A DNA stretch of 64,000 nucleotides, from positions 1-64,000 of IMG/VR virus record IMGVR_UViG_3300031463_000004, one strand, 5' to 3'. The position numbers were made by a program, and so were the translations under genes. This DNA is from a virus. The notes under the pieces were generated by a model, which was not told where the DNA came from, made no database searches, and saw only the letters and a program-made list of their open reading frames with translations. Each line of letters opens with the position of its first letter. Positions within the stretch are counted from its first letter, which is position 1. Of this stretch, positions 1 to 25,146 are shown one piece after another.

Positions 1-1313
1 AGGGGACTTGGATATTCAGGAACATTGTGGATGGCACTCTTAGGTGGCCAGAAGATGCGGATAAGGTGGTTGAGCTTATTCGGGACTTCTACAAGGTCAG
101 GAAGTCTGGAAACTTCAGAGCAGAACGTGATCTACTGAAGTACAAACGGTTCCCAGAACTGTGGGAAGTCGTAAATAACTACTTTGGGAAAGACAATGGA
201 CCAGAACCTAGTATGGATTTACCTGGAGTGGAATACCTAGGAGCATACAAGAATCTGAAATTGTACGAAATCAATGATGCGAGATCAATGGCAGAGATAG
301 CCAAGAGGGGTTCTGGGTGGTGCGTTAAGGATTTGTCTTATGGGAAAGAGTACCTGGAAGATGGACCATTCTTGCTCGTGACTAAGAATGGAAAGAACTA
401 TGTTCTCATCCACGAGGGTTCAGGACAGGCCAAGGACGTTTCTGATGACACAATCACTAACGAGATTGCTGGGGAGATCTTTCCACTCGTGAAATCCCAC
501 TTGAGGAACTACCGTGATGAGATAGCAATATTCCTGAACTATTACCCAGAGGAAGACCAGATAGATATAGTCGCTGAACACCCGCGCGCGTTGAAGTACA
601 TCTCCAAGCCATCCGAGAAGGTGATACGTGCGGCTCTAGAATCAGACCCATACGCCATCCGATACGTAGATAATCCATCTGAGGAACTTCAGCTGTGGAT
701 TGTGAAGCGTGCACCAGAAGCGATAGGCTCAATCAGGAACCCTACATCAAGAGTACAGCTGATTGCCGTAGAAGCAGATGGGGGTCTACTCGTGGCCATA
801 ACACATCCGACAGAAGAGGTACAGTTAGCCGCTGTGAAGGATGACCCATATGCGATCCGCTATGTCGAGAATCCACCAACTCAATTGCAATTGATAGCTG
901 TACGTGGGAATCCATATTCCATCACTGGGATCAAAAACCCGTCCGAGGAAGCGCAATTGGAGGCTGTTAAAGCGGATCCAAGTCTGATCCGAGATATAAA
1001 TAATCCCACAGAGAAAGTACAGTTGGAGGCTGTTAAAGCAGACCCACGTCTAATTCTGAATATACAGAATCCAACAGAGAAAGTACAGTTGGAGGCTGTG
1101 AGACTGGACAAGGACGTTATTAGGTATATCAGAAATCCAACGGATAGGGTCCTGGAGAAAGTCGGCATTACTGGTACAGTACGTAACTCCACGATTGAAA
1201 GAACCACTACTTATGTTACAAGAAAAAGCATGAGCAAGTGGCTCCATGGTAGTCACACAAATGGCTTGGTGGCACCCAGGAGGTTTCTAGACACACATAA
1301 ACGCCCTAATTAG
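1..1313 (+). CDS. 22-residue-repeat protein, copy 1 (5' end outside the window)
   Basis: This is the first of three tandem paralogues. The frame is open to the left edge, and alignment with copies 2 and 3 shows the true start lies before base 1; the in-frame GTG at 27 is internal. Seen in order: the end of a helical N-terminal region, a middle domain with a conserved SGWCVK motif and a GKNYVLIHEGSGQAKD segment, about ten 22-residue repeats of the form NPTEKVQLEAVKxDPxxIRYI, and a C-terminal WLHGSHTNG tail. The repeats resemble DUF4116- or HEAT-like helical repeats, which suggests a curved binding scaffold (inference). The WCV middle domain is loosely like one seen in PcfJ-type phage proteins, from memory only. 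Molecular function is unknown. The TAG stop lies inside a perfect hairpin shared with copy 2. Confidence 0.85.
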   Translation, partial: GTWIFRNIVDGTLRWPEDADKVVELIRDFYKVRKSGNFRAERDLLKYKRFPELWEVVNNYFGKDNGPEPSMDLPGVEYLGAYKNLKLYEINDARSMAEIAKRGSGWCVKDLSYGKEYLEDGPFLLVTKNGKNYVLIHEGSGQAKDVSDDTITNEIAGEIFPLVKSHLRNYRDEIAIFLNYYPEEDQIDIVAEHPRALKYISKPSEKVIRAALESDPYAIRYVDNPSEELQLWIVKRAPEAIGSIRNPTSRVQLIAVEADGGLLVAITHPTEEVQLAAVKDDPYAIRYVENPPTQLQLIAVRGNPYSITGIKNPSEEAQLEAVKADPSLIRDINNPTEKVQLEAVKADPRLILNIQNPTEKVQLEAVRLDKDVIRYIRNPTDRVLEKVGITGTVRNSTIERTTTYVTRKSMSKWLHGSHTNGLVAPRRFLDTHKRPN

Positions 1314-1330
1314 ACACGATTGTGTCTAAT
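1309..1330 (+). promoter_or_regulatory. Hairpin between copies 1 and 2, containing the stop codon
   Basis: Two perfect 9-bp arms, ATTAGACAC and GTGTCTAAT, flank the loop GATT. The TAG stop of copy 1 is part of the left arm, and the AGGAG ribosome site of copy 2 follows a few bases later. There is no T-run, so a classic intrinsic terminator is unlikely. The same structure recurs after copy 2, so it is a duplicated, conserved element. Confidence 0.7.
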
Positions 1331-1346
1331 AACACAGGAGACTGAA

Positions 1347-3602
1347 ATGCGGCAGTATCAGCACAATTTATATCGTTGGTTGCATGGACTGGATAGGTTC
1401 CATTTCATAGCTGATATTCAAAAGAACTGGGTCGGAAAATACCGGTATTTTCTAGAATCCAAAAAGGGTGTACCCGAGAAGGAGTCGAAACAGATTGCAG
1501 AGAAGTTTGTCTCTGACTTCATTGACTTTCTACACAATAACGGTCTGAAAGAGTCCCCAGAGGGGACTTGGATATTCAGGAACATTGTGGATGGCACTCT
1601 TAGGTGGCCAGAAGATGCGGATAAGGTGGTTGAGCTTATTCGGGACTTCTACAAGGTCAGGAAGTCTGGAAACTTCAGAGCAGAACGGGACTTGCTAAAA
1701 TATAAACGGTTCCCAGAACTATGGGAAGTTGTAAATGACTACTTTGGACGAGATATTGGACCAGAACCTAGTATGGATTTACCTGGAGTGGAATACCTAG
1801 GAGCATACAAGAATCTGAAATGGTACGAAATCAATGATGCGAGATCAATGGCAGAGATAGCCAAGAGGGGTTCTGGATGGTGCGTAAAGAATGTCTCTTA
1901 TGGGAAAGATTACCTAAAACAGGGACCATTCTTGTTGGTGACGAAGAATGGAAAGAATTATGTGCTCATCCATGAAGGTTCAGGACAAGCAAAGGACGCA
2001 TCCGATGACACAATCACTTATGAAATTGCAAAGGAAATATTCCCACTTGTGGAATCACACATTTACGGAATACTCACTGGAGAACTGGGGGTATTCTTGA
2101 ACTTCTATCCTGAGGAATACCAAATAGATAAAGTATCCAAATACCCGGATGCGATAAAATACATAATTAATCCATCCGAGTCTGTACAGATAGCTGCGGT
2201 ATCTTCTGACGCAGATGCAATCAGATACATCTATTCACCATCTTATGACGTACAGATTCTGGCCGTGAAGAAAAATCCGTACACCATTGCGTATGCCCCG
2301 GACATACCTGAAGAGATGCAACTAGAAGCTGTACGGAAGGATGGTAAACTTATTAGAGACATAGATCACCCGTCTGATAGCGTGATACGTGAGGCACTGA
2401 AATCGGACCCATACGCCATCAACTACATAGACAATCCATCTGAGGAATTCCAGATGTTGGCTGTGAGAGAGGACCCAAAGTCAATACGATTCATTAAGAA
2501 TCCTACGGAAAGAGTACAGATGGTTGCGGTAGAAGAGAAGGGGGATGTAATTGAGTGGATAAAAGATCCGACAGAGAGAGTAAAGTTAGCAGCTGTAAAG
2601 AATAATCCATATGCAATTCGTTACATCGAAACCCCTTCCATCGAAGTCCAATTGACAGCAGTACGGAAGAGTCCTGGCTCCATCTCACAGATCAAGAACG
2701 CAGCAGAGGAAGTGCAGATAGAGGCCGTTAGGAAGAAAGGCACTATCATTGAATATATCGTTGATCCGTCAGAGACGGTGAAGATGGAAGCCGTTACGAA
2801 CGACCCGAACGCAATATCGCTCATCAAAAACCCATCTGTGGAATTAGTATACGCAGCAGTCAGAGCCAATGGTAACTCAATACAACACATCAATAACCCA
2901 CCAGAAGAGTTACAATTAGAAGCCGTGCGGAATACACCGATGAGTATACAGTATATTGACCATCCGTCAGAAAGAGTCCAACTTGAGGCTGTGAGGTTGA
3001 ACCCAGCAGCGTACCTCTGGATAGACAAACCGACAAAACGTGTCACAGAGGAATATTTGAAACACCCAGTATCAGAAGGGTCCATATCCACAATTCTGGC
3101 GCTAGACCCAAAGATAATAAGTAGGGTGCCTAACCCTTCTGAAAAACTACAGAAACAGGTCATAGCGCTAAGTCCCTATTACATATTTTACATAAACAAT
3201 CCGACTGAATCGGTTCAGGTAGAAGCTGTACGAAAGAATCCAAGAGTTATCGACTTTATAGAGGATCCAGTTGAATCTGCACAGTTGGAGGTCGTTAGAA
3301 CAGACCCAACACGGATCCGGTATATAAAGCAGCCAACAGAGAGAGTGCAATTGGAAGCTGTGAGACGGGATAGGCGTTCCATTCAATTCATTCACAATCC
3401 GACGGATAGAGTTCTAGAGGAAGCAAAAAGGGAAGATACGGATGATGGATCAGATGATATTGACCGAGTACACAGCTCCAAGACGGCACGAGCTAATCCA
3501 CATACTATGAGACAAAATCTGGTCTGGTGGCTTTATGGTAATCACACAAACGGACAGACACTATCCAGGAGGTTTCTGGATACCAATAGACGATATAATT
3601 AG
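1347..3602 (+). CDS. 22-residue-repeat protein, copy 2 (longest)
   Basis: The ATG at 1347 is chosen because AGGAG lies at 1336-1340 and the N-terminus then matches copy 3; a TTG at 1320 lies inside the hairpin and is unlikely. Order of parts: an N-terminal WLHGLDRFHF motif, a helical region ending in WEVVNDYFG, the SGWCVK / GKNYVLIHEGSGQAKD middle domain, about twenty 22-residue repeats (one, at about 3030-3120, expanded and degenerate), and a C-terminal WLYGNHTNG motif. The short W-L-x-G motif appears at both ends of the protein. Repeat number differs strongly between the three copies, while a stretch of the N-terminal coding sequence is identical in all. Function is unknown; a repeat-scaffold recognition protein is an inference. 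Confidence 0.88.
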   Translation: MRQYQHNLYRWLHGLDRFHFIADIQKNWVGKYRYFLESKKGVPEKESKQIAEKFVSDFIDFLHNNGLKESPEGTWIFRNIVDGTLRWPEDADKVVELIRDFYKVRKSGNFRAERDLLKYKRFPELWEVVNDYFGRDIGPEPSMDLPGVEYLGAYKNLKWYEINDARSMAEIAKRGSGWCVKNVSYGKDYLKQGPFLLVTKNGKNYVLIHEGSGQAKDASDDTITYEIAKEIFPLVESHIYGILTGELGVFLNFYPEEYQIDKVSKYPDAIKYIINPSESVQIAAVSSDADAIRYIYSPSYDVQILAVKKNPYTIAYAPDIPEEMQLEAVRKDGKLIRDIDHPSDSVIREALKSDPYAINYIDNPSEEFQMLAVREDPKSIRFIKNPTERVQMVAVEEKGDVIEWIKDPTERVKLAAVKNNPYAIRYIETPSIEVQLTAVRKSPGSISQIKNAAEEVQIEAVRKKGTIIEYIVDPSETVKMEAVTNDPNAISLIKNPSVELVYAAVRANGNSIQHINNPPEELQLEAVRNTPMSIQYIDHPSERVQLEAVRLNPAAYLWIDKPTKRVTEEYLKHPVSEGSISTILALDPKIISRVPNPSEKLQKQVIALSPYYIFYINNPTESVQVEAVRKNPRVIDFIEDPVESAQLEVVRTDPTRIRYIKQPTERVQLEAVRRDRRSIQFIHNPTDRVLEEAKREDTDDGSDDIDRVHSSKTARANPHTMRQNLVWWLYGNHTNGQTLSRRFLDTNRRYN
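1494..1687 (+). repeat. Identical block shared by the paralogues (copy 2 instance)
   Basis: This 194-bp stretch is identical base for base to 3783-3976 in copy 3, and its last part is identical to 1-127 in copy 1. Copy 1 positions 1-169 match copy 3 positions 3850-4018 in the same way. Flanking coding sequence diverges clearly, including at silent sites, which points to gene conversion or very recent recombination. Confidence 0.85.
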
Positions 3603-3619
3603 ACACGATTGTGTCTGAT
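3598..3619 (+). promoter_or_regulatory. Hairpin between copies 2 and 3, containing the stop codon
   Basis: Same element as at 1309-1330: arms ATTAGACAC and GTGTCTGAT with loop GATT and one G-T pair. It again includes the TAG stop of the upstream copy and is followed by the purine-rich ribosome site of copy 3. Confidence 0.65.
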
Positions 3620-3635
3620 ACCATAGGGGGCTAGA

Positions 3636-5471
3636 ATGCACCGGCATCACCACAATATGCTCCACTGGTTATATGGTTTGGATGGGCTCCATTTTACAGC
3701 TGATATTCAGAGAGATTGGGTTGGCAAATATCGGCACTTCTTGGAAGCAGAAAAGGGCGTATCCAGAGAGAAGTCTGGTCCAATTGCAGAGAAGTTTGTC
3801 TCTGACTTCATTGACTTTCTACACAATAACGGTCTGAAAGAGTCCCCAGAGGGGACTTGGATATTCAGGAACATTGTGGATGGCACTCTTAGGTGGCCAG
3901 AAGATGCGGATAAGGTGGTTGAGCTTATTCGGGACTTCTACAAGGTCAGGAAGTCTGGAAACTTCAGAGCAGAACGTGATCTACTGAAGTACAAACGGTT
4001 CCCAGAACTGTGGGAAGTTGTGAACGACTACTTCGGACGAGATAATGGCCCAGAACCTGATATGAATCTACCTGGGGTAAACTATCTGGGAGCGTATAAG
4101 AATCTGAAATTGTACATGGTCAGAAATGCAGACTCCATGGCAAAGATAGCCAATAGGGGTTCTGGGTGGTGCGTAAAGAATGTGAGATACGGGATGATGT
4201 ACCTGAAAGATGGGCCTTTCCTACTCATAACCAAGAATGGAAAGAACTATGTTCTCATCCACGAGGGTTCAGGACAAGCAAAGGACGTTTCTGATGACAC
4301 AATAAATCACGAGATTGCTGGGGAGATCTTTCCACTCGTGAAGTCACATATTTCTGGTGAATTCAGCGAAAAAACAGGTGAACTGGCAGTATTCTTGAAC
4401 TTCTACCCGGAGGAATATCAGATAGATAAGGTATCCGAATACCCGGAGGCGATACAATACCTATCTAACCCATCAGATCCAGTACAAATGGCTGCTGTGT
4501 CTACTGAACCACATGTAATCCTATATATTCCCTCACCGTCTTATGACGTACAGATTCTTGCCGTGGAGAAGGATCCGAATACACTTGCGTATGGTTCGAA
4601 AATATTTGAAGAGATTCAAATAGAAGCTGTACGGAAGGATGGGTCACTCATCAATTACATATCTCATCCATCTGAGAAAGTGATACGGGAGGCGCTGAAA
4701 TCATACCCATACGCCATCAGATACATGCGCAACGCACCTGAGGAACTTCAGCTACTGGCAGTTGGACATAATCCAAAGTCAATACAATTCATTACGCATC
4801 CAACAGAGAGAGTACAGTTGGCTGCTGTGAGAGAGGACGGGGACGAGATCCAATTGATAGATAATCCGACAGAGAGGGTACAATTAGAAGCTGTAAAGAA
4901 TAACCCGTATGCAATTCGTTACATCAAGAATCCATCCCTGGAAGTGCAATTGGCCGCTGTACGGATAGCACCTTACTGCATTTGCCACATCAAGAATCCA
5001 ACAGAGAAAGTGCAGTTGGAGGCTGTAGGACGGGACAAATACGCTATTCGGTATATCAAAAACCCAGTAGAAGCGGCACAGTTGGATGCTGTTAGCACGG
5101 ACCCTGAGCTAATCCGGTACATAGAGAATCCAACAGAGAGAGTTCAGTTGGAAGCTGTGAGACGGGATAGGACCGTTATTCGATATATCAAGAACCCCTC
5201 TGAGACCGTTATTCGATATATCAAGAACCCCTCTGAGGCAGCACAGTTGGAGGATATGAGACGGGATAGGCATGCCATGCAATTCATTCACAATCCGACG
5301 AATAGAGTCCTAGAGGAATCCCTCGGTACTAACACAGCAATGGACTCTAATAAGATACAGTCAAACACATATGCTACGAGAAAAAGTATGATCAGATGGA
5401 TTTATGGTAATCACACAAATGGACGGGGAATACTCAGGGGATTCCCAGACATACGTGGACACCTTAATTAG
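3636..5471 (+). CDS. 22-residue-repeat protein, copy 3
   Basis: The ATG at 3636 follows a strong AGGGGG ribosome site. The architecture matches copy 2: N-terminal WLYGLDGLHF, helical region, SGWCVK / GKNYVLIHEGSGQAKD middle domain, about fourteen 22-residue repeats (NPTERVQLEAVRRD type), and C-terminal WIYGNHTNG. Half a repeat (eleven residues, TVIRYIKNPSE) is duplicated exactly at DNA level at 5171-5236, so the array is still changing by slippage or unequal recombination. The next gene is unrelated, so the paralogue array ends here; how far it extends to the left is not visible. Function is unknown. Confidence 0.87.
   Translation: MHRHHHNMLHWLYGLDGLHFTADIQRDWVGKYRHFLEAEKGVSREKSGPIAEKFVSDFIDFLHNNGLKESPEGTWIFRNIVDGTLRWPEDADKVVELIRDFYKVRKSGNFRAERDLLKYKRFPELWEVVNDYFGRDNGPEPDMNLPGVNYLGAYKNLKLYMVRNADSMAKIANRGSGWCVKNVRYGMMYLKDGPFLLITKNGKNYVLIHEGSGQAKDVSDDTINHEIAGEIFPLVKSHISGEFSEKTGELAVFLNFYPEEYQIDKVSEYPEAIQYLSNPSDPVQMAAVSTEPHVILYIPSPSYDVQILAVEKDPNTLAYGSKIFEEIQIEAVRKDGSLINYISHPSEKVIREALKSYPYAIRYMRNAPEELQLLAVGHNPKSIQFITHPTERVQLAAVREDGDEIQLIDNPTERVQLEAVKNNPYAIRYIKNPSLEVQLAAVRIAPYCICHIKNPTEKVQLEAVGRDKYAIRYIKNPVEAAQLDAVSTDPELIRYIENPTERVQLEAVRRDRTVIRYIKNPSETVIRYIKNPSEAAQLEDMRRDRHAMQFIHNPTNRVLEESLGTNTAMDSNKIQSNTYATRKSMIRWIYGNHTNGRGILRGFPDIRGHLN
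5171..5236 (+). repeat. Perfect 33-bp tandem duplication in copy 3
   Basis: Units 5171-5203 and 5204-5236 are identical. The unit is eleven codons, exactly half of the 22-residue protein repeat, so the frame is kept but the repeat phase is broken locally. Confidence 0.92.
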
Positions 5472-5561: not shown

Positions 5562-5912
5562 TTGTGTTATATCGGTTTGATGGGTAGAGAGATACCTAAT
5601 CCTGATATGGAGGAAACGGTGGAAGAAAGCACCAACAATAATATGTTCGAGGTCGTGAAGGCTGTAATTAGAGGATCTAATGATGATGCCTGGAATACGC
5701 AAGCGGTCACAGAGAGGATGAAGAATAAGAGATTTGGGAGTTTTGAGGAAGCATTCCGATACGCGAAAAGAAGCCTTCCGGGAGAAAAAGGGACGATAAC
5801 TATCTGGTTTGAGTCTCAGACAATACACGGGTTCATCACTCAGGAGTTGGCGCAACTGCCTACGGACGCACCAAATACTGATTCAGAAGAGGGCAAGGAA
5901 TGTATGAAATGA
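5562..5912 (+). CDS. Small acidic protein of unknown function
   Basis: The start is uncertain. TTG at 5562 has GGAG at 5553-5556 at suitable spacing, while the in-frame ATG at 5580 has no clear ribosome site. The product is at most 116 residues with charged ends and a central segment (MFEVVKAVIRGSNDDAW to TITIWFES) that looks like a compact alpha/beta domain. No family is recognised. It sits between the repeat-protein array and the tRNA cluster on the same strand and may share their transcript. Confidence 0.6.
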   Translation: MCYIGLMGREIPNPDMEETVEESTNNNMFEVVKAVIRGSNDDAWNTQAVTERMKNKRFGSFEEAFRYAKRSLPGEKGTITIWFESQTIHGFITQELAQLPTDAPNTDSEEGKECMK

Positions 5913-5922
5913 GGTCGGTATG

Positions 5923-5998
5923 CCCTCGTAGCTCAGGTGGATAGAGCATCTGCCTTCTAAGCAGATGGCCGCAGGTTCGAGTCCTGCCGGGGGCACCA
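5923..5998 (+). tRNA. tRNA-Arg (anticodon TCT)
   Basis: A complete cloverleaf can be drawn: acceptor GCCCTCG paired with CGGGGGC (one G-T pair), anticodon loop CTTCTAA, T-loop GGTTCGAGTC, discriminator A and encoded CCA. It reads AGA codons. First of three tRNAs in tandem. Confidence 0.95.
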
Positions 5999-6001
5999 GA
6001 A

Positions 6002-6075
6002 GCACTCGTAGCTCAACGGTAGAGCGTCCGACTTATAATCGGATGATGGAGGTTCGACCCCTCCCGGGTGCACCA
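6002..6075 (+). tRNA. tRNA-Ile (anticodon TAT)
   Basis: Acceptor GCACTCG pairs with CGGGTGC. The anticodon stem TCCGA/TCGGA encloses the loop CTTATAA, giving anticodon TAT; the CCA is encoded. It would read AUA directly, unlike the usual bacterial CAT tRNA that needs lysidine modification. It lies three bases after the Arg tRNA. Confidence 0.92.
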
Positions 6076-6076
6076 T

Positions 6077-6163
6077 GCCGAAGTGGCGGAACTGGCAGAC
6101 GCAGCGGACTCAAAATCCGCCGTCCGAAAGGACTTGGGGGTTCGAGCCCCCCCTTCGGCACCA
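6077..6163 (+). tRNA. tRNA-Leu (anticodon CAA)
   Basis: Acceptor GCCGAAG pairs with CTTCGGC. Anticodon stem GCGGA/TCCGC encloses the loop CTCAAAA; a long variable arm typical of tRNA-Leu and an encoded CCA are present. It reads UUG codons. It starts one base after the Ile tRNA and ends just before the convergent gene at 6169. Confidence 0.94.
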
Positions 6164-6168
6164 TCTAA

Positions 6169-7443
6169 CTAATGCACATCGTGCACCAGAAATCGGAGAA
6201 TGCGAGAGGCTAGCTCTCGGTAATCAACCCGAGCGTCACCAGGCAAGTAGAAGACGTCCTTGACAAACTCAGCAAGGCGATGAGCAAGTTTAGGGATTGT
6301 CCGGGAGAAATCCCAGTCAGTTTCTTCAAGAGTGGCTGACACCATATCAGCCACCATATCGTACAGTTCCATGTCGGAAAGGATTGCATCGAGGACCAGT
6401 TTTGTTGCAGCACGAGTCCCCGGCAATTCCGGGTCCTGGAACCCCTGGCTATAGAGATACCCAGCCTTCCGTGTGGATGATTTCTTCTTAGTGTAGTGTT
6501 CCTTGATAATTGTGGACTTGGCGTATTCTGCCGGTCGTATCTCTACCTCGTAGGCTTGGCCATCCGGCGTCCTAACGAGAGCCACCCCGCCGTCTACACT
6601 CGACCTGAATGAAACTACCCTCCCCACAGAGGAAACCATATCCCTGAGAACCTGGAGAGGCGACGCTGGGCGATGTGCCTTGACTCGTACCATTTTATCC
6701 TCCTTAGTCCGAATGCCTCTGTATTGCCCTATAAACGCGGCAGACTCTACCTCCAACATTGTCTGTTCCGCAATCATCTTATCCCCGTACAAGAGTATCC
6801 CCCAGGTGTCTCCAGTCACTGGGTCTACATCAACTGACACAACTGACACTATATGTGGGTCGCCTGAATACCCTATCTTTCCAGATACCACCCTAAGACT
6901 CTTGTAGTCTCCTAAATAGACTCTAATCTTTCTCAATATTGAGTCTAAGGCATCCCGGTATTCTCTCTCCAGTTCTCGTGACTCTGGGTTCTCCCGAAAT
7001 TTATACTCAGCCCTAAGAAGCCGCAAAGCCCCTTCATACACATCGTGGAGTTCCGTATCACTGAGACCATCGTATTCTATGTAATCAGATACCCAGTTAT
7101 CTACAATGGCGCGTTCATCACCAAGAATTGTACCTGGGAACCCTGCATGTTCTAGTGGCGAAACGAAATCATCTTCATCCAGTACCACGGAATCTGTTGC
7201 GTATGTGTTGAGTTCCCCAATGACAAGCATGGGGGAGCCGCCGTGTGCATCGGTTGCCTGCAACGCAGCGTGATAAGCAACTGAAATGTTGGATGTAATG
7301 TAGACACCTGAGTAGGGTCGAAGTGACGGGTATATAGCGTAGTCTGGATGCCAGGTCCAGATAGAGTTTTCTAGGACGTGTACGAGCCCCCTGGAACGAA
7401 TGCGTGGCCAGAACTTGGTAGTTGTCCCATGATACCAGCGCAC
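6169..7443 (-). CDS. Putative ADP-ribosyltransferase-fold protein
   Basis: The GTG at 7443 is preferred: GGAGG at 7449-7453 sits five bases upstream of it but would lie inside the coding sequence if the longer GTG at 7455 were used. The N-terminus reads WYHGTTTKF, then IRSRGL, then YSGVYITSNISVAYHAAL and a VVLDEDD segment. This order (HGT near the start, I-x-x-x-GL, a Y-x-T strand followed by A-x-x-A, then an acidic strand) is typical of H-Y type ADP-ribosyltransferase-like folds (PARP/Tpt1-like), which many phages carry. The remaining 300 residues are unrecognised; the C-terminal part is mostly helical. The target could be a host protein, RNA or NAD, but that is inference. It is convergent with the tRNA cluster and divergent from the deaminase-like gene. 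Confidence 0.6.
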   Translation of the reverse strand: MRWYHGTTTKFWPRIRSRGLVHVLENSIWTWHPDYAIYPSLRPYSGVYITSNISVAYHAALQATDAHGGSPMLVIGELNTYATDSVVLDEDDFVSPLEHAGFPGTILGDERAIVDNWVSDYIEYDGLSDTELHDVYEGALRLLRAEYKFRENPESRELEREYRDALDSILRKIRVYLGDYKSLRVVSGKIGYSGDPHIVSVVSVDVDPVTGDTWGILLYGDKMIAEQTMLEVESAAFIGQYRGIRTKEDKMVRVKAHRPASPLQVLRDMVSSVGRVVSFRSSVDGGVALVRTPDGQAYEVEIRPAEYAKSTIIKEHYTKKKSSTRKAGYLYSQGFQDPELPGTRAATKLVLDAILSDMELYDMVADMVSATLEETDWDFSRTIPKLAHRLAEFVKDVFYLPGDARVDYRELASRILRFLVHDVH

Positions 7444-7540
7444 ACGAACCTCCACACATCCAAAATACTACACGATGGGAGTAGCAAATAGGAAAGTAAC
7501 GTACTTTGCCATTGTGTTAGTTGTGCCTGGAGGTGATGAA
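7444..7540. promoter_or_regulatory. Divergent intergenic region
   Basis: About 97 bp separate the start codons of the ART-like gene (minus) and the deaminase-like gene (plus), so promoters for both should lie here. No -35/-10 pair stands out well enough to call. GGAGGT at 7529-7534 is an almost perfect Shine-Dalgarno sequence and fixes the plus-strand start at 7541. Confidence 0.45.
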
Positions 7541-7942
7541 GTGGATAGACTAGAGATACCGTCCCGAATACTCCCGATGTGGCGAAGAAATGCCAGGACG
7601 AGCAGGCAATATCTTGGGGTGAAGCAGAAACACATTGTCGTCGCCACTCTCAGGATAGGGAAAAGTCTGTTCACCAGAGTGAACAGTGCGAAGAAAACGT
7701 GCCCAGTACAGAAAGAATACAGTAATGGAGAGAAGAGTCACCTACACGCAGAGATCCGTGTACTCTCCAGATTCGTTGGAGAGGATTTGAGAGGGCCGAT
7801 GTTGGTGACACGCTGGTCCAGGGAAAAGTCGGGATTCACAATGGCAAAACCGTGTAAGTACTGCACAAAATTCATCCGAGAGAACTTCCCCCACCTAGAG
7901 GTAATCTATACCGATAGGTACGGTAATCTGGTATGGCTCTAA
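7541..7942 (+). CDS. Cytidine/deoxycytidylate deaminase-fold protein
   Basis: About 133 residues from the GTG at 7541, chosen for the strong GGAGGTGAT ribosome site just before it and because the product then starts with the first helix of the fold; an in-frame ATG at 7475 has no ribosome site. Seen: helix, HIVVATLR strand, TRVNSAKKT strand, HLHAEIRVLSRF with the zinc-binding His and catalytic Glu, and KPCKYCTKFI with the two zinc Cys. This is the complete H-A-E ... P-C-x-x-C signature of the zinc-dependent deaminase superfamily. The substrate (free nucleotide, nucleic acid or other) cannot be read from the sequence. It is the only plus-strand gene between the tRNAs and the right edge of the window. 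Confidence 0.78.
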   Translation: MDRLEIPSRILPMWRRNARTSRQYLGVKQKHIVVATLRIGKSLFTRVNSAKKTCPVQKEYSNGEKSHLHAEIRVLSRFVGEDLRGPMLVTRWSREKSGFTMAKPCKYCTKFIRENFPHLEVIYTDRYGNLVWL

Positions 7943-8130: not shown

Positions 8131-8739
8131 CTACATCCTCTTTCCAACAGCACTCAGTGCAATATTTACAAACTCTTCTTTTAGTAGAGTTGGCCAACTG
8201 TAGATAGTCCCGTCTATTCTACTCTTATAGTAGATACATACCCGAGCTTTTCTCCCCCAGAGTACCTCGGATCTGATATACCCATACCGGAATACGTCGT
8301 ACCAAACTGTAGGTTCGAACATTACTATAGGGTAATCGTCTGGGAGATTCTTTACGTTGATGACATCAGAGTAGGACAAACCACGTATGACAGATGATAT
8401 GGAGTTACGTACTTCATCCCATATCCTATCTATCAATTCCAGGTCCACTCGAACCCTGATTTCAGGATAATCCGGGTGATACTCCGGGATAGTTGGAGAG
8501 TCGAAGCCATTCGGATATACTCTGATTCCGTGTGGGGTGAGGACACACCGATGTGGGTCCACTCCCGGACCAAAGTGCTTCTCCGGACTCCAATTCGGTG
8601 GCAATCTATAGAATTTGTTTGTTCTTTGTCTTGACGTTAAGAAGTGGAGAGATGCAGTACCGAGAATAGCGAGGAAAAGTGCAGAGAGCAAAGATACAAC
8701 CATAAAATTGATGGTGTTATCGTACACGACTTGGCTCAC
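8131..8739 (-). CDS. Single-pass membrane protein of unknown function
   Basis: About 202 residues from GTG 8739, with only a weak ribosome site (CGGAA). Residues about 12-32 form a hydrophobic segment (MVVSLLSALFLAILGTASL), so the protein is likely membrane-anchored with the larger C-terminal part on one side. The rest, with PPNWSPEKHFGPG and a long alpha/beta region, is not recognised. The start lies 23 bases inside the end of the upstream gene, which suggests translational coupling. Confidence 0.65.
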   Translation of the reverse strand: MSQVVYDNTINFMVVSLLSALFLAILGTASLHFLTSRQRTNKFYRLPPNWSPEKHFGPGVDPHRCVLTPHGIRVYPNGFDSPTIPEYHPDYPEIRVRVDLELIDRIWDEVRNSISSVIRGLSYSDVINVKNLPDDYPIVMFEPTVWYDVFRYGYIRSEVLWGRKARVCIYYKSRIDGTIYSWPTLLKEEFVNIALSAVGKRM

Positions 8740-10168
8740 GATTTCCGCGTATCCACTGTCGCTCAGTGTGAGTGGAAGCTTTCCTACTTGCCGTATTTAT
8801 TCTCTCCAGCACAGGACCCCATACCTTCTTCTTCTCATCAGGCACACCTTTGTCCTCATACCGTTCCAGGATTCTCCTCTTCAATAGTCCCGAATAGTAC
8901 TTGTCGGGCCCAATCTCACGTTCTTCTTTTCCAATCCCTCTTGGGGTTGTTGCCCGCACTCCAGTCCAAAGAATCTCTTGCGCTTCGGTTGGATGGAGAA
9001 GGCCTTCTGAGATCTTCTGAACTATCTCGCTGTTCTCCAAGATGTCTTTCCCAGTCACATCAACAGGATTCGTATTCAGATACCTTGCAAACTTTCTTAC
9101 GACGTATTCGAGAACTGTGTATTGTGCGGCACTCAGTGTCTCTATTCTTCTCCCATTGAACACAAGCGGACTGAGCAACCGTGCCAGCCATGTGTCTATT
9201 ACAACTGCATTCGGGTCGCCCAGAAGAGCTCGCGCAAAGTTCTTCGTCTTTGGCCCATTAAGCGCACCAAGGCCATCTCTAAATATCCTCTTAACTGCTG
9301 TTTCAACGGATGGGAGCCTATCCACGTATTCATCCCCAAGAAGATAGGACTCATAGGCTCTAATGAACTTATCAATATTCTCTGACATAGAGACCCTTGG
9401 GCTTGTTGCTGCAAGAAGTGCAACAACAATTTCCCTCTCCTTGTCGTCTGGGAAATACTGTCTTAGCTTTTCTGCAGTTCTACGGTACCATCCGTATCCT
9501 GGTGTACCCCTGGAAAAGACATCGAGTATTGTATCAAACAAGTCTCGAACAGACCCATTATTTATCATCCTAGTGAATTTTCTCAACTTCTTGTCCCGGA
9601 GTAATTGATGTATAGATGTGTAGACCTGCCTGAGAATGGTATCCACTGAACCTTCAAATTCTGGAGCTATATCCCGGATGATGTCTAACGCTTTATCACG
9701 GACGCTGTCCCGCCATTCCTGGAACCCATTGAACTCACGTGTAGACTGAATATAGTCATCAAGTAATTCAGCCTTCAGCGTACCAATCAGATCTACTGGG
9801 TATTGTCTTGCCCGCAGTAGAATGGAACGTCTAGTAGGGGCCTCGCCGACGAACCTCCGCTTTCCCTCATTCGGTCTTGTGTGGGAGTCTCGGCAAAAGC
9901 CCCTATTCTGGGTCCGTGAACGGATGTAATCTTCCGTCACGGAGATAATGTCGTCGTAATCGTAAATGCTAATAGGACCATTATGGTCAAGAAGGGATGC
10001 CGCAAGGACGTGGAGAGCGACATCACCTGTACTCCCCTCCACTCTCGATAACGTCTCCCTGGCGTACTCCAGCACTCTAATGAGCGCCGGTGCGTCTATT
10101 GTACATGCAATAGATGCTACCGCCCTGTGGCGGCTATCCGAACTCTTGCGCTGAAGTTTAATGGCCAT
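8717..10168 (-). CDS. HhH / DNA-glycosylase-like phage protein
   Basis: The ATG at 10168 (MAIKLQRK) is used because GGAGG lies six bases upstream; the ORF itself is open to 10231. The product is about 483 residues. The central region holds GTPGYGWYRRTAEKL, LLAATSPRVSMSENI, and GPKTKNFARALLGD followed by VVIDTWLARLL. This layout (Y-R helix, AATSP, G-x-K-x-x-F-A-x-x-L-G-D, then V-I-D-T-W) is the hallmark of a phage family with a helix-hairpin-helix glycosylase-like fold, which I recall as DUF7178. Related proteins are linked to modified-base metabolism in some phages, but no catalytic role can be claimed here. The N-terminal 200 residues are unassigned. Confidence 0.6.
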   Translation of the reverse strand: MAIKLQRKSSDSRHRAVASIACTIDAPALIRVLEYARETLSRVEGSTGDVALHVLAASLLDHNGPISIYDYDDIISVTEDYIRSRTQNRGFCRDSHTRPNEGKRRFVGEAPTRRSILLRARQYPVDLIGTLKAELLDDYIQSTREFNGFQEWRDSVRDKALDIIRDIAPEFEGSVDTILRQVYTSIHQLLRDKKLRKFTRMINNGSVRDLFDTILDVFSRGTPGYGWYRRTAEKLRQYFPDDKEREIVVALLAATSPRVSMSENIDKFIRAYESYLLGDEYVDRLPSVETAVKRIFRDGLGALNGPKTKNFARALLGDPNAVVIDTWLARLLSPLVFNGRRIETLSAAQYTVLEYVVRKFARYLNTNPVDVTGKDILENSEIVQKISEGLLHPTEAQEILWTGVRATTPRGIGKEEREIGPDKYYSGLLKRRILERYEDKGVPDEKKKVWGPVLERINTASRKASTHTERQWIRGNREPSRVR

Positions 10169-10293
10169 TGAATGCCTCCAACAGAGAATGAGTTTACCTA
10201 TACCAGGATGCGAAGAGTAAAGAAATACCAACGAGAAATCCGTATCTCATAATGACCCTTGGATCTTATTGTGTGGTACAGGAGAAAGAATCA

Positions 10294-10764: not shown

Positions 10765-12297
10765 TTACACGCCCATTAATGTTGCTTGTTTCGGCTCTGC
10801 ATACTTTGCCAGACCTTCTGCACGTACAAGATGATCAGGCAATGAAAGCCGTTCCAATGCCCGAGGTTCAACCTTTATCGCTCCGCTGCCGTAGGACTTG
10901 CCAACCTTCCGCAAGTTGGCAATGGTTTCAGGGTGTGAGAGCACTTTCCAAAGGTGCTCAATGAAATCTGCATTCGCAAACTTTGGATAAACGCATAGGA
11001 GGCATGTAAGAGGCACCACGCCTGCATAATTTCTAATGAAGCGTAAGTTTCTTCGCCCAAGGTACGCAAACATAATCGGGGGAATCTTTCGAGTCTCCAT
11101 TCGATACCACGGTTTGCGTTTCTGAATGAGCGATTTCTTGTCAATGCCTCGGTTCTCTCCTTCTATCAAATACGCCTGAACCGTAGGTGGGAGGTCATCG
11201 AAAGACAATCCGTTTACGCATAGTAGGCGAGTCGGTCTGGAAGAAGCTTCGAGCCGTTCGATATCTTCATTCGTGAATTGTTCTCCCTGAATATCTCGCG
11301 TTCGGCCCACTGCCTTGACGAGAAATGAATCTGGTATGCCCAATTCCTTTGCCCGTCTTAACGTCATGAAGAAAAACTCATTATCTCCGGTCACGATGCC
11401 GCGCATGACCGATGCAAAGTCGCCAAGGGTGTAGCGGTCTGGTCTGGCTTGCGAAGGCGGACGAGAGAGTCCAGTCGCTAGGGCTTCTTCGACAGTCCTA
11501 CGGTGGACTTCTATCGTCTCATATTTTGACTGCCTAATGCCTGAAAGCAGAGACACCAGTTCTTCTGAGTTCTCCCGCAAACACTTCACCCAATAGAAGT
11601 CCTTCTCTGGGTATTCGTTCCTGATGCAGAGTACCAATACGTTGGTGTCTATACCAGGAAAGGGCGTTGCATCGGGGCAGAATGTAATTACGACATCTAT
11701 CCGGTACTGGGAGGCAATCCACTGCCACAGTTTCTGCGCAAAGACGCCCTCACAGATATCGGAAGACACAATATAACAGAGTCGTCCTCCTGGTGACAGT
11801 GTTTGGAGCGCACGGATGAGGAAATAGACATGCAGCCCTGCGCGTCCATCGATATTTTTCCCGGTAGCCTTTCGAGCAAAGTCGCGCAGGGATGCCTTCT
11901 GCGACGTTGAAAGACGGTGATGTCGGATGTATGGGGGATTCGCAACGATTGCCGGGAACTTCTCGGATGGAGGGTCAAGAACGAAGTCCCGTATCTCCAC
12001 ATTGTGCAGGTCGGAGTCGGTCAGACCTGATTGGTGAGCTTGCGCAAAGATGGTCGGATCAATATCACGCCCGAAAAGGGTCAAATCAAACTCATGCAAT
12101 TTGGAATAGCGTTTTGCGGCGCGAAAAAACACGCCTTCACCCAGGGCAGGGTCGAGCATTTTTTTCGGGTGTTCACGTAAAGCATAGGCGACCATGAACT
12201 CCGCCACCCAGTCTGGTGTCCAGAACTGCCCTTTATTTCGGAGCGTTTCTCGCTCGCAACCTGACGCCGATAGCGCTTGATATCGTGCTCGCTTCAT
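10765..12297 (-). CDS. N6-adenine DNA methyltransferase (Eco57I/TaqI-like)
   Basis: 510 residues. Motif X is KGQFWTP (about residue 22), the SAM-binding motif I is LDPALGEGVF (about 48), and the catalytic motif IV is NPPY (120-123). A gamma-like arrangement follows, with SPGGRLCYIVSSD and FPGIDTNVLVL. The second half (LGDFASVMRGIVTGDNEFFF onward) looks like a TaqI/Eco57I-type target-recognition domain, so the enzyme probably methylates adenine in a specific site. No nuclease motif is seen in it. The ATG overlaps the stop of the 56-residue ORF (ATGA), so it is the last cistron of the operon. Base composition is GC-richer than neighbouring phage genes. Without a partner nuclease it may be the self-marking arm of a defence or anti-restriction system (inference). 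Confidence 0.85.
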   Translation of the reverse strand: MKRARYQALSASGCERETLRNKGQFWTPDWVAEFMVAYALREHPKKMLDPALGEGVFFRAAKRYSKLHEFDLTLFGRDIDPTIFAQAHQSGLTDSDLHNVEIRDFVLDPPSEKFPAIVANPPYIRHHRLSTSQKASLRDFARKATGKNIDGRAGLHVYFLIRALQTLSPGGRLCYIVSSDICEGVFAQKLWQWIASQYRIDVVITFCPDATPFPGIDTNVLVLCIRNEYPEKDFYWVKCLRENSEELVSLLSGIRQSKYETIEVHRRTVEEALATGLSRPPSQARPDRYTLGDFASVMRGIVTGDNEFFFMTLRRAKELGIPDSFLVKAVGRTRDIQGEQFTNEDIERLEASSRPTRLLCVNGLSFDDLPPTVQAYLIEGENRGIDKKSLIQKRKPWYRMETRKIPPIMFAYLGRRNLRFIRNYAGVVPLTCLLCVYPKFANADFIEHLWKVLSHPETIANLRKVGKSYGSGAIKVEPRALERLSLPDHLVRAEGLAKYAEPKQATLMGV

Positions 12298-12464
12298 AGG
12301 GCCTGCTTGATAGAATCCAGAATGGTCAAAACCTGCTCCGCCAAAGGCATCGAAGCGGCGTCAGTGGAAACGCCGGTTTGCTGCCCCAGCAGAATTTCCA
12401 TGTAGTCGTATCCCATACTTCGTTCTGGAAAGACGAACAGATCCGCGGCGAGTGCGTCACTCAT
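12294..12464 (-). CDS. 56-residue ORF between ATPase 2 and the methyltransferase
   Basis: Starts at ATG 12464 inside the last codons of ATPase 2 (ATGAGTGA overlap) and ends with a TGA that overlaps the ATG of the methyltransferase. The peptide begins MSDALAADLFVFPERSMGYD and ends in an amphipathic helix (LAEQVLTILDSIKQAL). Overlap on both sides strongly supports real, coupled translation. No family is recognised. It could be an adaptor, inhibitor or antitoxin-like subunit; that is a guess from context. Confidence 0.7.
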   Translation of the reverse strand: MSDALAADLFVFPERSMGYDYMEILLGQQTGVSTDAASMPLAEQVLTILDSIKQAL

Positions 12465-13692
12465 CGAGCATCCCTCTCAGCAGCAGGCTCTCGAAGAGGC
12501 TGTCCTCCGTTGCGGTCGTGAGTGCAGCAGCAATCTCGTGATCCTTGAACAGATGGCCTGTGATGGGGAAGGGCTCAACGACTGTCGCCTGCCCGTCGCG
12601 CCGCACGTTGAACAGTCCGACGCCGTCTGGCCGCGAGCACGCACCTTTCAGCACGGCATCGCAGAACAGGGGCGAGTGCGTGGTGACGATGACCTGGCGC
12701 CCTTGCTCCAAAGCCAGGGAGAGCAGGAGTTGCGCGATTAACTCGATCCGGCGGGGATGGATACCGTTCTCTGGTTCTTCGAATGCGAGCAATGATCCGC
12801 CCCACGGGTTCACTACGATTGCACACAATGCCAAGACGCGCAGCGTCCCATCCGACACGATACGAGATGAGTATTCAACGCCAGACTGCCGGACGAGAAT
12901 GTCGAGCGTGCCACGCCGCTCGTCAAGGTCCACGGTGAGATCTTCGACGCTGGGCACGAGCGACTGGAGCGTCCGCACAATCGCCTGGAAATGTTTCGGG
13001 TACTCGGCACGAAGCCGATATAGGAACGGCGCGATATCACCTCCACGCACACCGATGTCATCCACGCCAGATGGCGGTCTCGCCTCACGCATGGTGATGT
13101 GTGGGTCGAGGTAATAGGTATGCCACCCCGACAACTCCAGCCGTGTATATTCAATAGACCGGTACATAGGCATTCCAAGCCGTTGGTCTGATAGGATCGC
13201 ATGGTTCTGCCGGAGAGGTTCATTCCGAGGCTTTCCTGCCTCTCTCTTCCGCCGAACTCGCAGGTTACCCTCGACTTGTTCGATAGCGGCAAGACCATTC
13301 GGGTTTCCATCTCGTCCTAAGTCGGTAAGGTATTCATCAGCCACGGAGAGCACACCGGAGGCCGGGGCGATCTCAACGGCGATACGATAGCGATAGGCAT
13401 CTTTCTTCTGCGTGAGGTCTGCTTCTAGGGAGAACTTCGCGGCCGACGACGAGAGCAACTCACCCTGCCCGGAGGATGGAAAGGAGAACGCCTCGACAGG
13501 GTAACCCCGGATTGGCTCACGGAGGGCGTCCCTAAGCGTGCGCTGGGTGCCGATGCGGGAGAGTGCCTGTATCGCATCGAGAAGGTTGCTCTTTCCGGCA
13601 GCGTTTGGACCGAAGAGCACCGCCATTCTCGGAAACTTCACCTCCACATCCTTCAAGGACTTGAAGCCGCATACTGTGAGACTCTTGAGCAT
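12457..13692 (-). CDS. ABC/OLD-like AAA ATPase (ATPase 2 of the operon)
   Basis: 411 residues from ATG 13692, with TAGGAG just upstream. An AAA_21-type ATPase: Walker A GPNAAGKSN (about 28-36), an ABC-like signature region VSDGTLRVLAL, Walker B LLAFEEPENGIHP (about 300-312) and the switch motif VIVTTHSP (about 330). No TOPRIM, HNH or other nuclease domain follows. Such RecF/SMC-like ATPases are frequent in phage-defence modules, where they sense DNA and drive an effector. It is paralogous in layout to ATPase 1 immediately upstream. Its end overlaps the 56-residue ORF. Confidence 0.85.
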   Translation of the reverse strand: MLKSLTVCGFKSLKDVEVKFPRMAVLFGPNAAGKSNLLDAIQALSRIGTQRTLRDALREPIRGYPVEAFSFPSSGQGELLSSSAAKFSLEADLTQKKDAYRYRIAVEIAPASGVLSVADEYLTDLGRDGNPNGLAAIEQVEGNLRVRRKREAGKPRNEPLRQNHAILSDQRLGMPMYRSIEYTRLELSGWHTYYLDPHITMREARPPSGVDDIGVRGGDIAPFLYRLRAEYPKHFQAIVRTLQSLVPSVEDLTVDLDERRGTLDILVRQSGVEYSSRIVSDGTLRVLALCAIVVNPWGGSLLAFEEPENGIHPRRIELIAQLLLSLALEQGRQVIVTTHSPLFCDAVLKGACSRPDGVGLFNVRRDGQATVVEPFPITGHLFKDHEIAAALTTATEDSLFESLLLRGMLDE

Positions 13693-13759
13693 GACCGTCT
13701 CCTACCTTGGCACCGCCAGGAGCATCGGATCGAGAAGTCGCTTCTCCTCGCTGTCCTTG

Positions 13760-14899
13760 TCAATCGTCTCCGACCAGAGCGAGTTGCGAGACTTGTTCAG
13801 GTTTAGTTTTCTGGAACACTGATTCTACCATCGAGAGTCCACTATCGAGTAGGCGGCGAGTATCCTGGTAGGAGGACGCCAGTTTCGCATCGGTACCCGC
13901 AACTCCTGGAACAAGCAGCAGAACTTCGTCGAGCCCTATACCCTCGTCCAGGAGCAGACTGGGAGAATGCGTGCTGAGGAAGATCTGGCGACCAGTTCGG
14001 CGTTGCAAGCGCTCCAGCATTTGTGGCAGAACGCACACGACCTCGGGGTGCAGGGAGAGCTCAGGCTCTTCTAGCAAGAGAAGTCCCTCCCCTTCTATGA
14101 CGGCCCAGAGAAGCCCAATCAGCCGTAGCGTACCATCGGAGAACTGCTCCTCAGTTTGCCGTGCGTCTTGCTGGCACCAGTGCTTGTACTTACCCCACAA
14201 GTGCGGGGTTCCACATACATCACGACATAGCCCGATTTCTTGCATCTGGGGCACGGCGACCTGGAGAGCCACTTGGATACGCCTCAATCTCGCCTTGAGC
14301 GTTTTCTCAGGGGTCTTGGCGATCTGCTCTAGAAAGTCACCACCAAACGGGTCATTGGCCCGACCGACTGAGCGAGCGGGATCCCGCACGAGCTGGGGCA
14401 CAATGTGCAGATATCGGGTTGAGGCAAAGAAGGTTACGATGTCGCGGAAGTCGCGATTGACATTTACCTGTTCGAGAAACGTTTGTGTCAAGCGGGCAGG
14501 ATCAGCATTGTCATGCTCATCAGGCCGGCAGAAAAGCACCTCGCCCTGCCGCAAGACACGCTCTTTCTTCAGCAGCGGACGGCACTGCGGGTCCTGATTA
14601 AATGCCACCTCATAGACCCATATCCTTCCATCGTTCGCTTCCTGAAGTTCGACAAGAAGCTCGATGTCTGGATGACGTCTAGCGGAGAGACAGCGAATGG
14701 CACGCACGCCGCCGCGACGAGTCACAGCCTCTTGGAAACCGCCTCCAGAAGAGGAGAGATCGCGCAAGAAACGAAACGCATCCAAGAAGTTCGACTTTCC
14801 CGAGGCGTTCGGCCCAACGATGAACATTCGGTCTGGAATCTCGACCTCCACGTTCTGAAAATTTTTCCAGTTTCTGAGTACGAGTTTACGAAATCTCAT
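13760..14899 (-). CDS. ABC/OLD-like AAA ATPase (ATPase 1 of the operon), possible C-terminal frameshift
   Basis: 379 residues as read. Walker A GPNASGKSN (29-37), signature-like FSDGTLRLIGLL, Walker B LLLLEEPELSLHP (about 273-285) and IFLSTHSP (about 303). ATG 14899 follows a GGAG and is directly preceded by the TGA of a 31-residue ORF. Near the end, after FQK, reading past the AAAA run at 13807-13810 by one base gives a longer, highly charged tail (LNLNKSRNSLWSETIDKD ... LLAVPR) that stops at 13702, right at the ribosome site of ATPase 2. The annotated end at 13760 may therefore reflect an indel, a programmed shift, or a real shorter protein. Residues needed for ATP binding are intact either way. 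Confidence 0.8.
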   Translation of the reverse strand: MRFRKLVLRNWKNFQNVEVEIPDRMFIVGPNASGKSNFLDAFRFLRDLSSSGGGFQEAVTRRGGVRAIRCLSARRHPDIELLVELQEANDGRIWVYEVAFNQDPQCRPLLKKERVLRQGEVLFCRPDEHDNADPARLTQTFLEQVNVNRDFRDIVTFFASTRYLHIVPQLVRDPARSVGRANDPFGGDFLEQIAKTPEKTLKARLRRIQVALQVAVPQMQEIGLCRDVCGTPHLWGKYKHWCQQDARQTEEQFSDGTLRLIGLLWAVIEGEGLLLLEEPELSLHPEVVCVLPQMLERLQRRTGRQIFLSTHSPSLLLDEGIGLDEVLLLVPGVAGTDAKLASSYQDTRRLLDSGLSMVESVFQKTKPEQVSQLALVGDD

Positions 14900-21080: not shown

Positions 21081-22127
21081 CTATTGCAGCCTATCCACAA
21101 CTGCCTTCCGCATCCTCTCAAATAGCTCCTTGTCCCTAAGCAGTACCTCACGGACGGTTTCACGGCCCTGACCTAGCCGTGTCCCATCTGTTAGAGAATA
21201 CCACGTACCAGATTTCTCAACTATCTTGAATTTCTCTGCGTAATCGAGTACCTCACCATGTACCGAGATACCAATGCCGTAGAGTATGTCGAATTCAGAC
21301 TGCTTGAATGGAGGAGCCACTTTGTTCTTGACCACCTTCACTCGGACTCTGTTCCCAACAACTGCCCCATCTTTTGCCTGGATAGACCCAATCTTACGTA
21401 TATCCAGACGCAGAGAAGCGTAGAACTTTAGCGCTCTACCTCCAGTTGTCGTCTCTGGGTTCCCATACATGGGACTCTGGGATATCTTGTCCCTGAGCTG
21501 ATTGATGAAGAGTACAACAGTACTTGTCTTACTCACCACACCAGCGAGTTTCCGCAACGCCTGGGACATCAGACGGGCCTGCAACCCCATATGGGAGTCT
21601 CCCATCTCCCCGTCAATTTCCGCCTTTGGTACCAGTGCAGCCACAGAATCAACAACAATCACATCCACAGCCCCTGACCTAACCAGTGTTTCTGTGATCT
21701 CAAGAGCTTGTTCCCCTGTATCTGGCTGACTAACAAGCAGAGATTCCGTATCAACCCCTATCCTAGCAGCATAATCTGTGTCCAGAGCATGTTCTGCATC
21801 AATGAATGCGCAGACACCACCGAGCTTATTCGCTTCAGAAATGCAGTGCAGTGCAAGCGATGTCTTTCCAGCAGACTCCGGCCCGAATATCTCAATAATC
21901 CTACCTCTTGGGTATCCACCAACCCCAATAGCCCAATCTAACCCAATACTACCGCTTGGGATGACCTCCAGTTTAATCTTTTGGCCTGTATCCCCCAACC
22001 TTGTAATCGCACCTTTCCCAAACTGCCCTTCAATCCTCGAAATCACATCTGAAATTGCTTTCTCACGAGGGTCCTCTGTTCTGTCTGACCCTTTTTGACG
22101 TGTTCCGGTTATAGATACTTTAGACAT
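21081..22127 (-). CDS. recA: RecA recombinase
   Basis: 348 residues from ATG 22127 ([11 protein letters not shown]), which has GGAGAAGG upstream; the longer frame to 22226 overlaps the SbcDC gene and is not needed. Full bacterial-type RecA: Walker A GPESAGKT (about 82-89), DAEHALD, Walker [13 protein letters not shown], the L2 region [15 protein letters not shown] and [16 protein letters not shown]. It forms ATP-dependent strand-exchange filaments on single-stranded DNA. It is closer in sequence to cellular RecA than to T4 UvsX. Its neighbours are the end-processing SbcDC fusion and other recombination proteins. Confidence 0.95.
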
Positions 22128-25100: not shown

Positions 25101-25146
25101 CGGAAGGACGTGCATGCAAATCAGAACCTACAAGGAATCTAGGCAT
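22120..25146 (-). CDS. SbcD-SbcC (Mre11-Rad50) fusion: nuclease plus zinc-hook ATPase in one chain
   Basis: A single open frame of 1008 residues. Residues 1-330: SbcD/Mre11 phosphoesterase with GSDLHA (about 7), GGDMFHDR (about 40), SGNHDQ (about 74) and GHHHKH (about 164), the metal-binding set. From about 350: an SbcC/Rad50 ATPase with Walker A SNGAGKSW (about 395), long coiled coils, the zinc hook CPEC (about 676), signature [10 protein letters not shown] (about 892), Walker [13 protein letters not shown] (about 925) and [10 protein letters not shown]. In T4 (gp47 and gp46) and most bacteria these are two proteins. It probably processes DNA ends for recombination-dependent replication. ATG 25146 follows a GGGGGC site. 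It overlaps recA by eight bases. Confidence 0.93.

Follow-up and report, generated by a model that had tools for sequence, protein, structure and literature searches.

Identical head segments in three tandem DUF4116 repeat-protein genes of a phage suggest recent recombination between paralogs

DUF4116 (PF13475) proteins have been modeled as alpha-solenoids (PMC8078820), and a full-text literature search found the family mentioned in only two papers and returned no known function for it. Among the closest known systems are a set of five clustered paralogs of Salicola phage SCTP-2 (gp45, gp46, gp48, gp37 and gp34; PHROG 17056 and 28193), which keep a common N-terminal head with a WC(T) motif while their C-terminal parts diverge, gp45 carrying a DUF4116 array, and protein EST35_0205 of Pseudomonas phage PA5oct, in which a WC domain is followed by a helical part. 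Packaging of proteins into the head for injection is a known phage strategy (PMC5512222), and the text of the same paper, which describes polyvalent proteins, does not mention DUF4116. Here we analyze a window of 64,000 bp, comprising bases 1-64000 of the 78,514-bp virus record IMGVR_UViG_3300031463_000004, base 1 of which is the contig end. Its first stretch (1-5471) holds three adjacent genes, here called g1, g2 and g3, which are the only genes of their family in the whole record. An earlier note, made from the sequence alone, had reported identical DNA blocks in the N-terminal regions of these genes and had read them as an array of phage repeat-protein paralogs with changing repeat number; the analysis supports both the blocks and this general description.

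The three products share one architecture, in which a head of about 250 residues is followed by an array of 22-residue repeats. All of them exceed the curated gathering cut-off of 24.9 bits for DUF4116 (30.3 bits for g1; 85.6 bits, E = 1.6e-24, for g2; 59.4 bits, E = 2.5e-16, for g3), and Pfam scans of the three products gave no other domain above cut-off and no recognized effector domain. The repeat numbers previously estimated as about 10, 20 and 14 were found to be 9, 20 and 13, the g2 count including one degenerate repeat and one C-terminal cap. A repeat model built for these genes keeps the 22-residue phase throughout, with the exception of a 35-residue step in g2, which has a 13-residue phase break near 3096-3134, and of a 33-residue step in g3. 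Structure prediction of one array, a check suggested with the original description, was run on g3 with the three sequences as input to AlphaFold2. The model is a regular alpha-solenoid with two helices per repeat and a predicted local distance difference test (pLDDT) score of about 90 or above over most repeats, in agreement with the published model of the family. The head was predicted with lower confidence, as a helical part (residues 17-133) followed by an alpha/beta part bearing the Trp-Cys motif. A fold search of the PDB returned weak importin/HEAT/ARM-like matches only, none of them at E ≤ 0.001. FtsH, HEAT and other weak matches to the repeats were judged compositional.

Exact tracts join the heads in all three pairwise combinations, spanning 127 bp between g1 and g2 (1-127 = 1561-1687), 169 bp between g1 and g3 (1-169 = 3850-4018) and 194 bp between g2 and g3 (1494-1687 = 3783-3976). 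The single mismatch in a second tract common to g1 and g2 falls at 262/1822, between runs of 65 and 54 identical bp, and the 78,514-bp record yielded no further exact repeat of at least 60 bp. The number of synonymous substitutions per synonymous site (dS) is 0 within the tracts, compared to 0.78-0.82 for whole genes, where the nonsynonymous counterpart (dN) is 0.22-0.25. Among codons specifying the same amino acid in g2 and g3, all 62 in the tract are identical, versus 70 of 123 elsewhere in the head (12/24 and 58/99 in its two portions) and 121 of 187 in the repeats. When such codons were shuffled along the head and the resulting runs compared with the observed one, the g2/g3 and g1/g3 runs gave p = 5e-5, the floor of the test (0 of 20,000 shuffles), and the g1/g2 run gave p = 0.001. 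The proposal that identical silent sites reflect recent conversion is borne out by these values. The putatively converted tract corresponds to codons 50-114 of g2 and g3, inside the helical subdomain of the head. Beyond it, g2 parts from the others at 1688 and shows seven silent changes over the 20 codons that follow, whereas g1 and g3 stay identical up to 169/4018, and these pair-specific limits point to separate exchange events rather than to one constrained element. Gene conversion is the simplest account of paralog tracts that lack silent change, sit in otherwise diverged genes and have limits specific to each pair, and unequal crossover followed by later divergence would be indistinguishable from it in one genome. 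Conversion is further supported by the presence in the record of products that read as RecA (21081-22226) and as an SbcCD-like exonuclease (22120-25146). On this account, the array clearly illustrates gene conversion among phage genes arranged in tandem.

The heads were compared with those of other phages using profiles. A profile of 14 phage WC heads, including that of PA5oct EST35_0205, aligned to the g1-g3 heads over 198 columns with an hhalign probability of 91% and an E-value of 9e-7 for a single comparison, and an hmmsearch with the WC-head profile gave 15.1, 11.0 and 7.7 bits for the three heads. The resemblance is colinear: a helical subdomain comes first, followed by an alpha/beta subdomain with G-x-W-C, Y...GP and D-x-x-D motifs. 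Foldseek comparison of the g3 model with viral models placed DUF4116 proteins from giant viruses and phages at the top, most structural neighbors in the viral library being giant-virus proteins, and matched the model to the PA5oct WC protein with E = 7e-6 over 457 columns. Judging from these profile matches, the heads of g1-g3 are divergent members of an unnamed "WC" domain, which in many phages lies ahead of a DUF4116 solenoid. A single pattern scan of IMG/VR with the repeat profile yielded 75 phage-contig loci, and among the 25 distinct phage DUF4116 proteins whose heads measure at least 120 aa, at least 17 carry a WC-like motif, an approximate count obtained with a loose expression. The placement of these heads in the WC domain is new, as is the description of a head-plus-solenoid architecture that is widespread yet undescribed.

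The described relatives differ from g1-g3 in specific ways. In comparison with other DUF4116 proteins, the arrays studied here are preceded by a WC head and belong to tandem paralogs that have undergone conversion. The SCTP-2 head is kept by purifying selection, most of its silent sites having diverged and its identical runs reaching 68 bp at most, and it begins with MKVKHITQYLFES, a sequence that the g1-g3 family lacks. PA5oct EST35_0205 is a single-copy gene with no DUF4116 repeats detected. Several domains are combined in some WC/DUF4116 relatives, as in polyvalent proteins (PMC5512222); examples are a 1564-aa protein that combines a metallopeptidase-like HELVHHKQ motif with a WC region and DUF4116 (phage locus L046) and a DUF4116 protein fused to a weak ART-PolyVal match (phage locus L101), whereas g1-g3 do not carry the several effector domains that characterize polyvalent proteins. 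A third relative joins a WC head, DUF4116 repeats and an SLT lytic transglycosylase domain above cut-off in one protein (phage locus L048, 4903-7350). Close relatives of the array itself were sought in viral contigs with the full proteins, the head and WC-region profiles, the repeat region and exact 40-mers, in genome contigs with the head profile, and in plasmids with the head. None was found, and a DNA-polymerase query did not recover sister phages; these searches may not cover the records closest to the genome of the window, and the absence is therefore weak evidence.

We favor, with moderate confidence, an interpretation in which g1-g3 are three tandem paralogs composed of a WC head and a DUF4116 solenoid, with heads overwritten by recent recombination and solenoids serving as adaptors on a common head. 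Ectopic recombination among the three genes, by gene conversion or an equivalent unequal exchange, would have overwritten pieces of the head, most recently the helical subdomain, while the solenoids would diverge through ordinary, mostly purifying substitution and through gain and loss of whole repeats. The head might then perform a common job, such as docking, packaging or catalysis, and each solenoid might bind its own protein partner, distinct in identity or in shape, and the array would then amount to several adaptors on one base, with host or virion proteins as partners. The proteins may also travel with the virion. Contact with host or virion is suggested by the annotation of EST35_0205, a remote relative of g1-g3, as a virion protein detected by electrospray ionization tandem mass spectrometry (ESI-MS/MS), and by the SLT fusion, the ART-PolyVal match and the metallopeptidase-like motif of the relatives described above. 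An adaptor or delivery role would also fit the frequency of WC-like motifs among the phage DUF4116 proteins with long heads, and a repeat whose surface-type positions vary while others are kept. Several observations weigh against this interpretation. The link to the WC domain is remote, since comparison with the SCTP-2 heads alone gave no significant hhalign result; the head folded alone yields a poor model (pLDDT 52); the g1-g3 family lacks the capsid-targeting N-terminus of the MKxxELLFEYD type found in many WC heads; the PA5oct annotation calls many proteins structural, including an FtsH homolog (PMC6892783); and the array lies on the plus strand, with a small open reading frame (ORF) and three tRNAs, as opposed to structural genes on the minus strand, which does not speak for a virion protein. 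In addition, PHROG and Pfam scans restricted to the head gave no match to the WC-head family (PHROG 17056-like), and the g1-g3 family lacks the short MKxxxFxxE-like targeting peptide that the prohead protease removes from the N-terminus of T4-type internal head proteins. Our best guess therefore remains solenoid adaptors on a common head, with delivery of the g1-g3 products in the virion possible but unproven.

The combination of a shared head and a variable solenoid is also seen elsewhere. IMG/VR contig 3300028364_000026 (locus L040, 4599-9330) encodes five tandem DUF4116 paralogs with 7, 4, 10, 7 and 10 repeats and nearly identical heads of 54 aa. Unlike those of g1-g3, these heads are short, unrelated and devoid of the WC motif, and the family is much younger overall, its silent sites separating head from repeats less sharply. 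In pairs of near-identical contigs of relatives from different samples, no 66-bp unit has been gained or lost and gaps are of 24 bp or smaller, indicating that the layout recurs but that the arrays do not change rapidly below 1% divergence. A tentative generalization, which we regard as possible rather than probable, is that phages keep tandem families with an interchangeable head, maintained partly by gene conversion, and diversifying DUF4116 solenoids that adapt it to several host proteins, that this theme has evolved repeatedly (in this phage, in SCTP-2 and in the L040 phage), and that delivery or docking is the role of the WC head, a domain not described before. Were a common head with variable solenoids a general phage layout for fielding several protein-binding adaptors, it would define a large unstudied class of candidate host-interaction proteins, with a head domain whose link to the virion is testable.

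The principal alternative is that of an arms-race recognition family, a reading advanced in the earlier note; in the version considered here, the solenoids would be inhibitors or decoys with changing targets and the heads would be homogenized to preserve delivery. The conserved head, the variable repeat number and the concentration of variability at surface-type repeat positions (12, 13, 15, 18 and 21) are all compatible with it, as is the fusion of phage proteins of the same architecture to conflict-type domains. The analysis of dN/dS by repeat position that had been proposed as a check, however, lends it no support. Positional homologs among the repeats have a dS of 0.94 and a dN of 0.28 (dN/dS 0.30), and the proportion of nonsynonymous differences (pN) is below that of synonymous differences (pS) at each of the 22 repeat positions, so that no excess of amino-acid change is seen at candidate binding positions. 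The least variable positions are P1, E3, Q6, A9, V10, P14, I17, I20 and N22, and the overall pattern fits a solenoid under purifying selection whose core is conserved and whose surface is free to vary, although at a dS near 1 an ancient episode of positive selection, or an arms race too slow to leave a mark, might go unnoticed. The claim of fast-changing arrays holds only in that repeat number differs between the paralogs: repeats 1-9 mostly match best at the same position in the other genes, g1 lacking three of them, and the near-identical contigs of relatives from different samples keep identical arrays. Several C-terminal repeats find their best match inside their own gene, which places unit turnover mostly in the C-terminal half. 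The suggestion of inhibitors with changing targets fares no better, the g1, g2 and g3 products having no match to PADLOC defense models at E 0.01 and the repeats being under purifying selection. Nor does head identity require an arms race, because in the arrays of other phages purifying selection alone keeps the protein sequence of the helical subdomain. We therefore consider the arms-race explanation unlikely.

Somewhat less probable still is that the tracts are a product of assembly, through merging of near-identical paralog segments into one consensus reused three times. The contig does start inside the repeat, the three-way identity extends to the first branch over exactly 127 bp, with the first 127 bases of the contig present three times and the copies first differing at base 128, and the tracts are about as long as a short read or longer. 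SPAdes-type de Bruijn assemblers use a largest k of 127, and their contigs break on entering a repeat. The break at base 1 is hence what would be expected if a k = 127 assembler had stopped in a repeat. Such a break itself needs the 127-mer to be present in several copies among the reads, which supports a real, multi-copy repeat. The breakpoints moreover vary by pair, and single-base differences between paralogs are retained elsewhere; wholesale collapse into a consensus is unlikely because the 262/1822 difference survived assembly between its flanking identical runs. The break does leave three things unsecured: where g1 truly starts, whether more copies lie to its left, and how N-termini and solenoids are joined across the 194-bp tract. 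The g1 frame is open from base 3 to a stop at 1311-1313, and since base 1 is the end of the record, g1 is 5'-truncated and its head incomplete; additional gene copies may be missing left of base 1. The array thus exemplifies how repeats of this kind break short-read assemblies, and copy numbers of such families are probably undercounted.

Two last alternatives are very improbable. Conservation of an overlapping DNA or RNA element in its own right would explain up to 194 bp with invariant silent sites, but a shared element should have shared limits, and the tracts end differently in each pair; and a young duplication followed by fast divergence of the remainder, which the head-to-tail order and a 20-bp palindrome common to both spacers would fit, is incompatible, as a single date, with a dS of about 0.8 outside the tracts and 0 inside them. 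Recombination between the paralogs remains the preferred reading of the tracts, the coordinates of which are given in Table 1 together with those of the other features of the array.

Table 1. Features of the g1-g3 array (positions in the window).
Feature	Position	Strand	Description
g1	1-1313	+	5'-truncated head, 9 DUF4116-type 22-aa repeats (543-1136), C-terminal tail
g2	1347-3602	+	Complete, 751 aa; head and about 19-20 repeats (2106-3464)
g3	3636-5471	+	Complete, 611 aa; head and 13 repeats (4404-5294)
g1 tract copy	1-169	+	Identical to g3 over 169 bp and to g2 over 127 bp
g2 tract copy	1494-1687	+	194 bp identical to 3783-3976 of g3
g3 tract copy	3783-4018	+	3783-3976 identical to g2; 3850-4018 identical to g1
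Second g1/g2 tract	197-316	+	Matches 1757-1876 over 120 bp with one mismatch; not shared by g3
GSGWCV motif of putative WC subdomain	g1 309-326; g2 1869-1886; g3 4158-4175	+	Read from the sequence; colinear with the WC heads of other phages in the profile alignment
Exact 33-bp tandem duplication in g3	5171-5237	+	Half a repeat (11 aa); source of the 33-residue step of g3
Palindrome TTAGACACGATTGTGTCTAA over g1 stop codon	1310-1329	+	20 bp; predicted 9-bp hairpin
Second copy of palindrome TTAGACACGATTGTGTCTAA, over g2 stop codon	3599-3618	+	

The ends of the genes carry additional shared elements. The N-termini read MRQYQHNLYRWLHG and MHRHHHNMLHWLYG, and a W-L/I-x-G motif occurs at both the N-terminal (1347-1400, 3636-3690) and the C-terminal (near 1209-1260, 3498-3545 and 5367-5415) protein ends, being absent from all other long frames of the record. 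A weak likeness of the first 40 residues to T5-type nicking endonucleases (tblastn E of 2 or more, PHROG E of 0.09) was set aside. The TTAGACACGATTGTGTCTAA palindrome was not found after g3 or elsewhere in the record, and might be a site of RNA processing or regulation that came with the duplicated unit. The 33-bp duplication in g3 is of recent origin.

Downstream of the array, the plus strand carries the small ORF (5562-5912) and the three tRNAs (5922-6163), while the majority of the other long ORFs in the record, including replication and structural genes, are on the minus strand. At the opposite end of the contig (record positions 76402-78514, minus strand), the sequence enters a repeat protein (NTTGxxNTAxGxxAL) whose last bases are unique in the record. 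The gene at 6169-7455 (minus strand) encodes a 428-aa protein that starts with YHGTTTKFWPRIRSRGLV and resembles ADP-ribosyltransferase-fold proteins, no family being matched, and the 155-aa product of 7475-7942 (plus strand) has weak matches, below cut-offs, to cytidine/deoxycytidylate deaminase and APOBEC/AID-like families. It is followed by a gene for a 504-aa protein with a DUF7178 domain (8717-10231, minus strand; E = 2.7e-12) and by a stretch (10765-14899, minus strand), with a G+C content of up to 57%, that encodes a predicted DNA methyltransferase and two AAA ATPases matching HEC-01/AriA-like candidate defense models and is possibly a phage-borne defense island. Further along the minus strand are a DNA polymerase (28845-31511), the first part of which reads like a uracil-DNA glycosylase, and a 1270-aa protein (39502-43314) with repeated Ig/PKD-like domains and a match to Hoc-like head-decoration proteins.

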